Positions 54,816-61,938 of a stretch of DNA of 64,000 nucleotides are shown here, piece after piece (within the stretch, counting starts at the first letter, position 1; the number at the start of each line of letters is the position of its first letter). Below the pieces are notes generated by a model. The model did not search any database, had not been told where the DNA came from, and worked only from the letters and a program-made list of their open reading frames with translations. Position numbers and translations under genes: made by a program. The stretch comes from Malus domestica (lineage: Eukaryota > Streptophyta > Magnoliopsida > Rosales > Rosaceae). The stretch spans positions 439,001 to 503,000 of the forward strand of contig NC_091662.1 in assembly GCF_042453785.1 (NCBI RefSeq), written 5' to 3'.

Positions 54816-54923
54816 AACTCGAACCAAAAATCTGAGGTCGCAAAAACAAAAGAAAAAAAAAAGGCAAATCCAACTCTGACGCGCACACTCTCTCACTTCA
54901 CCAACGAAAGGAAGGGTTCTTAG

Positions 54924-55296
54924 GGCTGGTTTGGTATTGCTGTGCTTTGAAAAAAAACTGCTGTGAGAATAAGCGGCTGTGCTGTGAGAATAAGCGGCTG
55001 TGAAATAAAGCCAGTAGAGTGTTTGATAAACTTTTTTGTGAAAGTACTTTTGGAAAAAAAATCAGGATGATAGTGTGTCTTTTCATTAAAGGAGCACTGT
55101 AGCTCCGTGTGCTTTGAAAAAACTGGTTTTTTTTCAAAGCAGCAAATAGCAGCTTCAACTTTTCCTTTGATTTTCAGCTTATTCTCACAGCAGCTTCCAA
55201 AATAAGCTATTTTTTTTCAGTTTATCAAACACAAAAATTACCCTCAACTTTTTTTCTGACTTTTTTTAAAATCACCTCAATGCCAAACGGGCAAAG
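54924..55296. mobile_element. hAT-like non-autonomous element (with empty site)
   Basis: The ends GGCTGGTTTGGTATTG and CAATGCCAAACGGGC are inverted copies. Internal arms pair (GCTGTGAGAATAAGC against GCTTATTCTCACAGC). The right duplicate joins GGTTTTTAG directly to CCTGTCC (63860-63875), so the ~370 bp here is an insertion. A target duplication is expected at 8 bp but is too diverged to call. Confidence 0.72.
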
Positions 55297-55542
55297 CCTG
55301 TCCACCGCCCCACTTGACCCTTCTCTCTCTCTCTCTCTCTTTTCTGAGTTTCTCTCTCTTACCCCCCGAAGAGAGAAAACCAAACCAGACCAAGAAATCC
55401 GAATCAGCGTCTGTTTTCGCTGTTGTTGTTGTTGTTCTTTGATCGGACGGCTGAGATTCTTCAGGAGATTAAGATCAAGGTATGCAGCAGGGTGATCAAC
55501 CGGTGTTGAACTTGAGGCCTGGTGGCGGTCGCTGTAGACTCC

Positions 55543-56246
55543 GGCTCAGGTCTGCTGTCCCGTATTTCATGTCTCATTTGTGTCTCCTGTTTAATTCACG
55601 CCTAACACTGTTAAGTTAACTTAACAAAAATACTGTTACCTTTTTATAAAAAAAATTAAAAAAAAAAATTAAAGAAAGCAACTTTGGAGACCCACCCCAA
55701 GACTTTTCATCTCTTTTTCTCTCTCACCTGGGAATTCTAATTCTTGTGTTGGACTGTGATTATTCAAACGACGGTTCCGATGAGGGGTGTCGTCAAGCAC
55801 AAATTCTCCAAAAAAATCAAACAACTGCATACCATTGCTATCATGATTGATCAGATCTGGAAAAAAATCGCAGCGTATGGGCTCCGGCCCTCTTGGCCGA
55901 CCGATCTCGCCGGTCTCTTTATTCAGCAACCCATCGTCGTCATCTTCTTCTTCTTCTTTAGCTTGATTTTCTAGTTTTTCTGCGATGAGTTCAGTTTGCT
56001 CCTTGCTGGGTTTGCTATTGCGAGGCGGACGAGCACAGAAGCCGAATGCTCTCTCTTTCTGCTGGATTTGCCATTATTCGAAGAGAATAGAATAGACGCT
56101 CCAGATTAACCCGTTTGGTTTAACTTTGGTTTTTATTTATTTTTTAATTAGTTTTATTAAAACTTTAACAATGTTAGATATGGATGTAAAATATGAGACA
56201 AGAGACACAATCGGGGCATGAAATCCGGGACAGCAGACCTCAAGCC
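55543..56246 (-). mobile_element. Pack-MULE carrying an SDHAF4-like gene fragment
   Basis: A 704-bp element with inverted ends: GGCTCAGGTCTGCTGTCCCG at the left, and at the right the reverse complement of GGCTTGAGGTCTGCTGTCCC. Similarity continues inward for ~80 bp (ATTTCATG..GTGTCTC). It is flanked by a perfect 9-bp direct repeat, GTAGACTCC (55534-55542 and 56247-56255), the target length of Mutator-like elements. Inside, on the minus strand (about 56070-55876), a frame contains KPSKEQTELIAEKLENQAK, an acidic run and NKETGEIGRPRGPEPIR. That last piece is the C-terminal signature of the succinate dehydrogenase assembly factor SDHAF4 (DUF1674; usual form NKETGE-GGPKGPEPTRYGDW). After GPEPIR the similarity stops. 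No transposase is present, so it is non-autonomous and carries captured host sequence. Confidence 0.8.
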
Positions 56247-56270
56247 GTAGACTCCTTGGTCCTCGTTGTA

Positions 56271-56590
56271 TAAACCAATAAACACTTGTCAGTTGTCTAT
56301 TGGTAATTACTATCACTCAATCAGTTGAGACTGTTAGAAAGTTCGTTATAAAGGGTATTACTGTAAAAATCCATGTATTTGGATACCATATAACATGTAA
56401 AGGTTTGTAATAAATCATTGAGAAGTACAAAGAGACTCCTTCGTTTCTAAGTTTTCATTTGGATACTATATAACACAAAGTACAGGTTTGTGATAAATCA
56501 TTGAGAAATACAAAAGTCTTCTGAGATTCCTTCGTTTCTAAGTTTACATTCTTCTCTCTTCTTTTCTTCAAAGCTCAATTCCTCAGTGTT
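56271..56590. repeat. Second insertion in eIF(iso)4G exon 1, LTR-promoter-like
   Basis: Between GGTCCTCGT (end of the GPR codons) and TTCGACTCCTCATCC (DSSSA codons) about 320 bp break the expected N-terminal coding sequence. The insert holds an internal tandem duplication (56377-56455 and 56456-56548, each with TTTGGATAC and TCCTTCGTTTCTAAGTTT). The layout resembles a short LTR, but no clean 5-bp target repeat was found, so identity is left open. Confidence 0.45.
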
Positions 56591-59500
56591 GTGAGCTTCG
56601 ACTCCTCATCCGCCGCTTCCAGCCCGTCGTCTTCATCGTCTTTGGCTTTCGGTTCCTTTCTTCTGATCTCCCTCTCCTCCGTCCCCATGGCGGCGCTCCC
56701 CCACAATTTCTCTATCAAGGTATACTCATCAAGCCTGTAAAGTTTGCGTCTTTGGATTCAATTGTGTCCAAACAAAGATGGGTTCCCAGGGATAATTAGT
56801 GTTTTAATGCGTTGTTTAGACTATTTTGTATCGATTTTGAATGTAATTTGAGCAACCCTTTAATGATTTTAACTCCCCCTACCGACCCCCTTGAGACTCG
56901 TTTGAGTAGATGAAAATTTTTGTTTATATCATAGGAGGTTTTGTTGCAAGTAATTTTAAGGAGCCAATGTCCTAATTCTTGGTGGGAGTTTGTGTGCCTG
57001 CTTTAAATATGGATGAACATCTATATGTAGGCTTTAGGTGGGCAAGCATTGAGTTGTAGGCTGCCCATAAGGGACCTACAAACATCTGATTCATCCAATG
57101 CTGCATAATTGGGAGTTGGTTACTTTGCAATTTGAAGCTTCTGTTTGCACTGTAATGTGGCCAGACTTTCTGAATTCTTTTTTCTTGACAGGCTGGAGAC
57201 GCACGGTTTGAGGATTGTGACACCAGAGACCAGATCTTACAGCTTAGAGAGGTATTCAATCTTGGAATGCACTTCATGTTGAACAGAACAGTATTATTTG
57301 TGAACAAAAATGATAAGACATTCTCATAAAAACTTCACCAATCTGCGTAATATTATACCGCTTCTTTGTAGGCTGTTGAGGTCCCTGATGGAATTCTAAA
57401 GGTGAAACAAGAAGTTGACGCTGAAATTTTCGGCAGTGAAGATCAGAGCTGGGGTCGTGCAGACACCAATGTGAGTTTTCGTCCGTCTAATATTACTTGT
57501 ATTTTCAATGTTTAAGTGTTGAAGTTGATGGAACTGTATATTCGATATCATCATTTTCAAATATCTTTTGGTTGCATTCGATTTTATAATGCTCATATTC
57601 TTTTTATTGGTGTGATTTGTTATGCAACCTTGAAGTTATTGATCTCCATATTTATGATATTAAGTGTGTACTTTATAAAAGACTTATAATTTTTTTATTT
57701 ACCTCTTCAGCTTCCAGCTCAAACTCCAACTCCAGCACCAGCTCAAAATCGTTATTCTGAGCCAGACAGCCAGGATTGGCGTGGCCGTTCTGCACCAGTT
57801 CCTACCACTGGAGAGGAACGGTCTTGGGATACTCTTCGGGAGAATAAAGAGTCTGGTAATCGGTTTGATTACAGACAGCAAGAAGCAAATCAGTCTCAAT
57901 TTTCAAGGACACAGAGCCAAGGGGTAATATATTTTAAGAACTGTGTAATTTGATCCATATAGTTTTTCCTCTCTGTAGTTTTGGTTTGTATTTGTCTCCC
58001 GATTATCTTTTGTATTGAGTTTTGCCAGAGGGAATAGGTTAGAGTTTATTCTCATGCAGTTATATCCAGTGGGAGTAGGTTGAATGTGCACCTTTGTTTG
58101 GTTCTGGTGTATTCTACTGTTCTTTTTAACTTCTGTACTTGTACATGAGGACAATATCGACTCAGATTCTTTTCTGATATCATTGGTTTCTCGTCATTTC
58201 AGGGAGGGCCTGCTCCCACTTTAATCAAAGCTGAGGTGCCATGGTCAGCTAGAAGGGGTACTCTATCTGATAAGGATCGCGTGTTGAAGACTGTGAAGGG
58301 GTAATATATCATGAAACATCAGCATATTCTCTTACATCTTGATTATTTGCTCACTATATCCCAACACGAATAATCATGGGATTACCCTTCTGTCCCAAGT
58401 TGTCATTGTTTGGTGATCTTTTGGTCTACCATATAGTTTTATGTGAGAACATTATGCTTAATGGCTTTCGCTTTATGTTTTCTATGCAGGATTCTAAACA
58501 AGTTGACTCCGGAGAAGTTCGATCTCCTGAAAGGACAACTTATAGACTCTGGCATTACGTCAGCTGATATCTTAAAGGTTTGTATTGATATACCCTTAAT
58601 CCTTAATTATAATGTTCTCTTCGGTTTTGTTTTATTACTTCTGGCAACTCTACTCACATTTTTCCTTGCATTCCAGGGTGTTATTTCACTGATATTTGCT
58701 AAGGCCGTGCTAGAACCTACATATTTCCCCGTGTATGCTCGTCTCTGTTTTGATCTTAGTGAAAAGATTCCCCGGTTCCCCTCAAACGAACCAGATGGTA
58801 AAGAAATCACTTTCAAGCGGATCCTCTTGAATAACTGCCAGGAGGCTTTTGAAGGCGCTGACAAATTGTGGGAAGAAGTGAGACAGTTGACTGCCCCTGA
58901 ACAAGAGATGGAGCGTAGGGATAAAGAAAGATTGGCCAAGATTCGTACACTGGGAAACATCCGTTTAATTGGAGAGCTTCTGAAGCAGAAGATGGTACCT
59001 GAAAAGATTGTACATCACATTGTTAAGGTACGTCGTGGGTTTCCTCCTTCACCCCTTTACTTGCTCAGCAATTACCCTTCAATATGTTGTTCATGGTTGT
59101 TTTTTATGTGAAACAGGAGCTCTTAGGATCTGCTAACAAAGTTTGTCCTGCTGAGGAAAACGTGGAAGCAATATGTCATTTTTTTAGCACTGTTGGAAAG
59201 CAGCTTGATGAGAAGCCAAAATCACGCCTTATAAACGACATGTACTTCAGCCGAATGAAGGAACTGACAACAAACCCTCAATTGGCTCCAAGGTTGAGGT
59301 TCATGGTTCGTGATGTAATTGACTTGCGTTCCAACAACTGGGTTCCCAGACGTGAAGATGTAGGCTATTGTAATATGTGCTCGACTTGTATATTAAATTG
59401 CTAATATTATTTTTAAAACTAATTGTCATCTTATTTTGAAATTGGATTGCAGATAACAAGCCAAAACCATCACTGAAAATACGTACGGAGGCCGAAAAAA

Positions 59501-59648
59501 TTCTTGGATTGCGTCCGGGTGCTACTGCAAGCATCCGAAGTGGTCGTAACAATGTTTCTGGTGCTCAAGGGAGTACCAGCCCTGGAGGATATCCCAACAA
59601 CCGACCTGGTTCAGGGGGCATGATGCCTGTAATGCCAGGAACAAGGAA

Positions 59649-61857
59649 TGTGAAACCCCGTCTTTATTTTTACGTATTTTTGTAATATTATCGAACGTGT
59701 GAATTACCAAATTACCCTTGAAGCGTGAACATTGACTTTGTGTTTTCGAAACGTCGAACGTTTTCTTGGATATTTTCATGTTTCGTCTTAAGTAGCCTTA
59801 ATTTATGAGCCAATGAGAACCACTTTGGATCCTCATCCCCTTGTTCTTCCCCCTTACCCGTGAGTCCTTCCCCCTTTTTTCTTTTACTTTCTGTCAACTT
59901 TTTCCCTTGCTAACTCTCACTTCTTTCTACACTCTCCCTCTCTTCCTCTCGGCTTGCTTTAGAACCACCATCTCCGAGGGTTTTACACACACAAACAACA
60001 ACACACAGCAACGCACAACAATCTTGGCACCACCACCATCACCCCTGTGAACTCAGAAACGAAGAAAAACCCTCTAAACCCTTCCAAACTCGCTGCACAA
60101 TGCACTCACTATTCACTGAGCTTTTCTGATGAATTTTCATGTTCTCCGGCGATGGTAAGCCTCGAACCTCGTCCAAAAGTTGTAGATCGTGTCTTGGTGT
60201 ATGTTTAGAAGAAGTTTTGAGAAGTTTTGGTGATGTCTGGACGTAGGAAACTCACGGGGAAAACTTTCTCAGTTTTCAGGAGAGGACCACCACTTTCGAG
60301 GCATTTTCAGCCAAACCACGACGAGTTAGCCATCGAGAAATGTGCCATTCTCTTCATCTCGTTGAGAAGTATGATTTTTTTTTTGAATCACTTGATTTCG
60401 TTGAGTATTGATGAAGTTATAAACGTTTAAAATTTACCCATAATCCGACGAGTTTCGCAGATTCTCAATAACCAACCAACTTTCAAGCCATTTTCCAATC
60501 AACTTTGGCCACTACTTGGTCCCCACTTGGTATGAATTTCTTCTCCACATTCCTAACAATATTTTGGCTTTGATCACTCGATTTGGACATGTATTGAGCT
60601 TGGACTGGGCTCTTGAAGTTGGGGGAAATATCTGGGATTTTTCCACTTTTGAAGGGTCGCGCATAGGTGCCTGCCATGGCCAGCGTGTGGAGCACACGCG
60701 CCTCCGTCGAAGCTATTGTGCTCCGCCGTTGTCCACGACAGCGTCGACAACTTTTCCGGTTGCCTTTCCGACAACCAATCCCAGCGTGTGGGGGAACCCG
60801 AGGTCACTCCTTAGGTTTTTCGACGTCTTGAATCCATTTACGACGTCTATTTTCAAAAATTCAATCATTTTGGTAGAGTTTTATTAATTTGTCCCCTTAT
60901 GTGCTTAGGTGCATTTGATAATGACGTTTCCGTCCTCCCTAATTCGAAGGGCTCTTTGACAACAGAGTATCTGTGAGTGAACCTCTTCTAAAATGTATGA
61001 TTTTATTATTAGAAATGCATGATTTTATGACTACGTTTTATGAAACGTTTATGAGTAAATCGGATTTACGCTTTAATAATTATCATGCTTTATTGAATTT
61101 ATGTTTACTGAGATATTTATGTATATGAATTATGATATGATTTTGAGTTATTGAGCTTCGATAAGACATATTTTGGAAAAATTATGTTTATAGTTTTCTA
61201 TGCTTACATATGGATAATGATATTTATATATGTCTTCGGGCGGGTAATGAAGGGCCTACGAATGAATCATAATTATATATGGCTTCGACTGAGCGATGTA
61301 GTGGCTTAAGTCGGAAGATATTTATATATGGCTTCGATCGGGAGATATAGGGCCTTTGAGCGATTATGATACCACTACTAAACACACTATATACGATATA
61401 TGTTTTAAAAAGGTTTTATGACATGCTAAGTTTTCGAAAAACCTATTCCTTATTGGTATGTTGAAAAATAACTATTTTAGTATTATACATATATCACCAC
61501 TCATGTTTTATTTTATGCCCCTTCATGACCTAAGAACGAGGCATTCGACCTGAGATACGAGGCATTCCCATATCAGTTTCTCTTGTAATAACACTTTCTA
61601 ATATTCTTTATGCTTGTACTTTGAATTAGTAGTATGCTCTGAATATATTATGCATTATCACTTCTAAATTATTGGCAGTTAAATATTATATTTTATTAAG
61701 ACTTGTACTTGATTGTTATATTACATTGTTACGCGCAAAATTTATATGCATGTTTTACATGTACTTAATATATGTATTTATGAAATAGCTTGCATCATCT
61801 TCGGATGTCGGCCAACATATCATGTTGTCCTTAAGACACGGGGATCGGGGTGTGTCA
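59649..61857. mobile_element. Solo LTR, ~2.2 kb, in eIF(iso)4G pseudogene
   Basis: Begins TGTGAAACCCCGTC and ends GGGGATCGGGGTGTGTCA, so it has TG..CA ends with short inverted termini. It is bounded by a perfect 5-bp target repeat, AGGAA (59644-59648 and 61858-61862). Host exon sequence continues directly on each side (PGTR, then KMPGMPGMDNDNWEVQR). No internal region, second LTR or coding domain is present, as expected after LTR-LTR recombination. It is a fossil; the intact target repeat argues for a moderately recent insertion, after the gene copy had lost its constraint. The long LTR suggests a Ty3/gypsy-type parent, not proven. Confidence 0.82.
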
Positions 61858-61938
61858 AGGAAGATGCCTGGGATGCCTGGAATGGATAATGACAATTGGG
61901 AGGTTCAAAGGACACGGTCAATGCCAAAGGGTGATGCC

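Follow-up and report, generated by a model that had tools for sequence, protein, structure and literature searches.

A very probable Pack-MULE with an SDHAF4 fragment in the first exon of a truncated Malus domestica eIF(iso)4G duplicate

In the stretch of Malus domestica DNA analysed here (the window, 64,000 nucleotides), a 704-bp element lies at 55543-56246 between two identical 9-bp target repeats and carries a fragment of an SDHAF4 gene on the minus strand, antisense to the eIF(iso)4G copy in which it sits. The element is very probably a Pack-MULE, a non-autonomous type of Mutator-like element (MULE), because related termini recur elsewhere, around both the same and other cargo as well as on a 4.9-kb transposase-bearing element on contig C17. 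The explanation as a whole, by which a Pack-MULE mobilised in trans would have inserted after the duplication of its host gene and now carries decaying cargo, is given a probability of roughly 0.95. Genome-wide searches covered the 651-Mb assembly (19 contigs).

The target repeats, each reading GTAGACTCC, occupy 55534-55542 and 56247-56255 and are identical at 9/9 positions. Inside them lie the terminal inverted repeats (TIRs), the left at 55543-55667 (plus strand), with a strong outer part of ~54 bp and weaker similarity to ~125 bp, and the right, which pairs with it, at 56122-56246 (minus strand). Without gaps, the termini are 83% complementary over 48 nt, while a gapped alignment reaches ~125 bp. 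The end-to-end local alignment scored 45, and none of 2000 control stretches of 704 bp drawn at random from the window scored as high (control maximum 25); the matched termini and the perfect 9-bp repeat described in an earlier sequence-only reading of this DNA were thus confirmed. The scan for a transposase covered the longest open stretch of the 704-bp element (134 residues, 55672-56073, minus strand), which matched DUF1674 alone at E-values up to 10. The internal stretch at 55668-55800 (minus strand) has no donor match, since an assembly search with 55672-55812 returned five places, all of which were the window element or one of four sisters of its own group (group 1, see below).

The sequence-only reading had proposed a search of the genome for a parent locus, and this search yielded two intact SDHAF4 genes without introns, one on C1 and one on C7. 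Each consists of one continuous frame, of 108 codons on C1 and of 111 on C7. The SDHAF4 label holds because PF07896 (DUF1674) is matched above its cut-off by both (2.7e-20 and 4e-18) and because, among solved structures, the protein of the C1 gene matched chain 8dyd_C, named 'Succinate dehydrogenase assembly factor 4, mitochondrial' (E=2.4e-12); NCBIfam gave no credible match for either gene. Of the six places found by a PF07896 search of the assembly, two are these genes and four are element copies, on C11, C10, C12 and C3. The open stretch of the window element itself (55672-56073, minus strand) reached 23.3 bits (E=8.7e-5), just under the cut-off of 23.5, so the SDHAF4 identity of this copy rests on the similarity of its DNA to the two intact genes (E=2.4e-45 and 1.3e-36). 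Internal similarity to SDHAF4, which had been set beforehand as a test, was found by DNA, PF07896 and 8dyd_C.

The captured span extends from about codon 4 into the 3'UTR, leaving out the start codon. On the minus strand, alignments placed a remnant of the start region, from about codon 4 and with an internal deletion, at 56046-56110; a coding piece at 55869-56045, which includes NKETGEIGRPRGPEPIR and matches the C1 gene at 80% and the C7 gene at 75%; and a 3'UTR piece at 55801-55867 (element positions 259-325), which matches the C7 locus past its stop codon at 75%. The number and strand of the roughly 60 antisense codons read earlier were borne out (~59 codons, minus strand), but the reading frame is broken by a frameshift, the parental C-terminus (YGDWERNGRCSDF in the C1 gene) is deleted, and some 3'UTR was also captured. 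Divergence of the cargo from the C1 and C7 genes amounts to 11-12% in the 169 columns that align best and to 20-21% when 233 columns are compared; being about equally distant from both, the cargo does not single out either gene as the donor.

The insertion site is located in the first exon of an eIF(iso)4G copy, where the host reads MQQGDQPVLNLRPGGGR; the first part of this exon (55482-55542, plus strand) matches two paralogues, L039 (start C2:503118) and L040 on C15. Both paralogues carry GTAGACTCC once, and the element is absent from them. L039, an intact-looking copy with MIF4G and MA3 domains, lies directly downstream of the window copy, whose K2P distance is 0.043 to L039 and 0.103 to the C15 copy (~2.9 kb). 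Since the element is absent from both paralogue sites, its insertion most simply appears to be younger than the tandem eIF(iso)4G duplication. The remainder of the window copy spans 56596-61936 (plus strand), where similarity to L039 ends ahead of the MA3 part, which lies further downstream in L039; the window copy has no MA3 part. The location in exon 1 of an eIF(iso)4G pseudogene, as proposed earlier, was upheld. Because the host is a truncated tandem duplicate holding three inserts, little was disrupted by the element. The paired gene loci in the assembly are C1/C7 for SDHAF4 and C2/C15 for eIF(iso)4G.

A second, unclassified insert of ~330 bp in exon 1 (56266-56595, limits set by eye) is also absent from both paralogues. 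It has an internal repeat and partial relatives on C5, C1 and C11, and is perhaps a small retroelement. The 2.2-kb insert in the last exon part (~59648-61856) begins with TGTGAAACC, terminates with GTGTCA and, by visual inspection, probably has a 5-bp repeat (AGGAA); it is perhaps a solo LTR. A high-copy repeat (54919-55291) closely precedes the eIF(iso)4G duplicate and is matched at 95-96% in 37 of the best 40 places, which were scored from 2697 first-look candidates for the whole query containing it.

Sisters of the element fall into several groups; since the best candidates were the ones scored in the search, the numbers of loci given here are minima. Group 1, with the same cargo and layout, comprises at least six loci (the window, C3, C11, C10, C12 and C15), of which the C10 copy has lost its right end, the C12 copy is rearranged and the C15 copy has lost its coding part. 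Group 2 was found in at least seven places (C5, two on C3, C7, C17 and two on C10), and six of these were read. Both groups share an internal deletion junction within the SDHAF4 coding part, and it is this junction, not the tree, that argues for their origin from one capture. In the unrooted tree (13 rows, groups 3 and 4 left out), the two genes, group 1 and group 2 form three separate starred sets and the order among them is not told; the coding alignment was made without the C15 copy (L015) and L027, which has lost most of its coding part. Target repeats, read by eye in the printed flanks, were identical at 9/9 positions in the C11 copy, L016, L017, L020 and L027, at 8/9 in the C3 copy and L018, and at ~6/9 at the rearranged C12 locus, in a tally made without the C10 and C15 copies and L019, each of which has lost one end.

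In group 3, all five loci read (L021, L022, L025, L026 and L028) carry a short SDHAF4 piece beside other gene-like sequence, and these elements are chimeric. Group 4 (L023, L024) contains a 5' part of SDHAF4 that is missing from groups 1 and 2, and at least ~7 places in the genome are similar across much of the query. The L023 element (1050-2183) has ends different from those of the window element; they are 78% alike to each other over 102 columns, gave no BLAST match to the outer 54 bp of the window element, and are accompanied by no target repeat that could be found by eye. The distances computed for group 4 were set aside because of a misaligned 3' part. Groups 1 and 2 on the one hand and group 4 on the other each lack SDHAF4 parts present in the other. 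Judged by these sequences, SDHAF4 was most simply captured at least twice, group 4 being a separate capture; one larger capture that split later is a possible alternative.

The termini recur beyond the SDHAF4 family, as well as within it, in agreement with what the sequence-only reading had expected. The TIR pattern with up to two mismatches occurs 38 times (20 forward, 18 reverse) and not at all in the control. L047 (2.6 kb) and L048 (0.6 kb) have the same type of TIR with other contents, and target repeats of 8/9 and 9/9, respectively, by eye. A MULE transposase search of the assembly gave at least 151 matches (the best 150 of 482 candidates were scored), and the match at C17:32498310, the one place examined for kinship of its ends with the window element, lies near a TIR match. 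The 4.9-kb element there (C17:32496934-32501864, L060 1435-6365) is a structurally complete MULE with the target repeat ATGACCAGG (9/9), two ends with 80% similarity across 585 columns, and an open frame of 682 aa that contains MULE (PF10551, E=6.1e-27) and SWIM domains, the FAR1 match being under the cut-off. We take autonomous MULEs of this type, with a FAR1/SWIM-type transposase, to be Jittery-like. The window element resembles it in its related outer TIRs and 9-bp target repeat and differs from it in the transposase frame, which is present there and was not found in the window element. The outer TIRs of the two are only 68-69% alike (136 columns), so the C17 element is a candidate mobilising relative of the family by no more than a guess. 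The Pack-MULE identity assigned to the element earlier is sustained by the TIRs, the target repeat, the gene-derived cargo, the elements with other cargo and the transposase-related ends on C17.

An SDHAF4 pseudogene could also have arisen by other routes, and an inverted repeat might have come to surround it by chance, without any transposon. The likelihood of this explanation is practically negligible, as it is opposed by the exact target repeat, the empty sites, the dispersed copies with target repeats of their own, and a TIR score unmatched in 2000 random stretches.

Within the Pack-MULE reading, the state of the cargo was assessed from codon positions. Between the C1 and C7 genes, 4, 2 and 15 changes fall on codon positions 1, 2 and 3 (74 columns each), whereas variable columns number 12/15/16 of 71 each in group 1 and 5/8/9 of 60/59/59 in group 2. 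These near-even changes in the elements, unlike those in the genes, suggest, within what so few sites can show, clear constraint on the genes and little or none on the cargo. The pairwise-summed changes lean mildly to third positions (55/68/84 in group 1, 22/34/42 in group 2), hence a little past constraint on the cargo may have existed. The same lean is one of two observations consistent with a retained, translated SDHAF4-like peptide under selection, the other being that two of the four element copies over the Pfam cut-off (C10 and C3) have no stop within the match, while the C11 copy has two and the C12 copy one. Against such a peptide, the open frame holds no ATG ahead of the motif in 9/11 copies, the window copy included (C12b and L020 do have one), group 1 copies have in common an additional base that separates presequence and domain, the window copy has lost the C-terminal residues, and the variable columns are spread nearly evenly over codon positions. 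We therefore rejected the peptide, which is extremely improbable, on the missing ATG, the shared extra base and the near-even changes, the mild third-position lean speaking the other way.

Alternatively, antisense or small RNA made from the element might tune the SDHAF4 genes; transcripts reading through from the host eIF(iso)4G promoter would be antisense to SDHAF4. The orientation of the cargo fits this proposal, which had been raised from the sequence at the outset, and exact matches to the C1 gene are 23 nt long in the C11 copy and 24 nt in 4/4 group 2 copies tested (10 copies were tested in all). However, the longest exact match of the window copy is 19 nt to the C1 gene and 18 nt to the C7 gene, and the host exon is closely preceded by the high-copy repeat. 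Small-RNA targeting of SDHAF4 from the window copy seems unlikely because its longest exact match is 19 nt; the earlier proposal kept its support from orientation and was weakened for this copy by that match and by the divergence of its cargo, and such tuning as a whole would be very unlikely. The copies with perfect C1 matches of 23-24 nt also form part of a broader idea, in which SDHAF4 would be a recurrent capture target of at least two families with unrelated ends, whose copies jointly feed small RNAs that damp complex II assembly; this, too, is to be regarded as highly doubtful.

The preferred reading is that of a Pack-MULE with decaying cargo. An ancestor of the family took up an intronless SDHAF4 stretch between its TIRs, as the alignment shows, the mode of copying being conjectural. 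Transposase supplied in trans would have moved the element, with the related C17 element as a candidate source, and the family has spread to several loci, with 9-bp target repeats where both ends survive. The window copy probably entered exon 1 of the tandem duplicate after the duplication, to judge from the empty sites, and its cargo now appears to decay near-neutrally, most likely with no function.

Non-autonomous MULEs with gene fragments are called Pack-MULEs, and MULE target repeats usually measure 8-11 bp, according to the part of the Oryza study used here (PMC4858842). The window element agrees with the Oryza Pack-MULEs described in that part in being non-autonomous, in its target repeat within this range, in its captured gene fragment and in the lack of a transposase in its longest open stretch, but the TIRs of Oryza Pack-MULEs and genic MULEs are usually 100-500 bp long (PMC4858842), compared with ~54 bp strong and ~125 bp in total here. 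A closer parallel in family structure is tomato PM-ZIBP, given in the sections drawn on here (PMC3310237) as a Pack-MULE family whose 14 copies bear a fragment of a single nuclear gene and occupy distinct loci; three table rows give target repeats of 9-10 bp and sizes of 0.9-1.4 kb. Like the SDHAF4 family, it is a multi-copy Pack-MULE family bearing a fragment of one gene; its donor, however, is a zinc-ion binding protein gene instead of SDHAF4, tandem TIRs occur in 13/14 of its copies and were not seen in the SDHAF4 element, and in apple a second element family with different ends bears the same gene (comparison within the same sections, PMC3310237). Among the matches listed in the literature on Pack-MULEs in apple or Malus and on SDHAF4 in Arabidopsis, no description of an SDHAF4-bearing Pack-MULE was found.

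Though clear-cut, the window element is an ordinary representative of a plant transposon type already known, and it leaves the understanding of that type unchanged. It provides a well-documented dicot Pack-MULE, in which an empty site, intact candidate donors, sisters, a candidate autonomous relative and a decay test come together in one genome. The presence of the same small intronless gene in different element families is a mild curiosity, which could help ask why some genes are recaptured.
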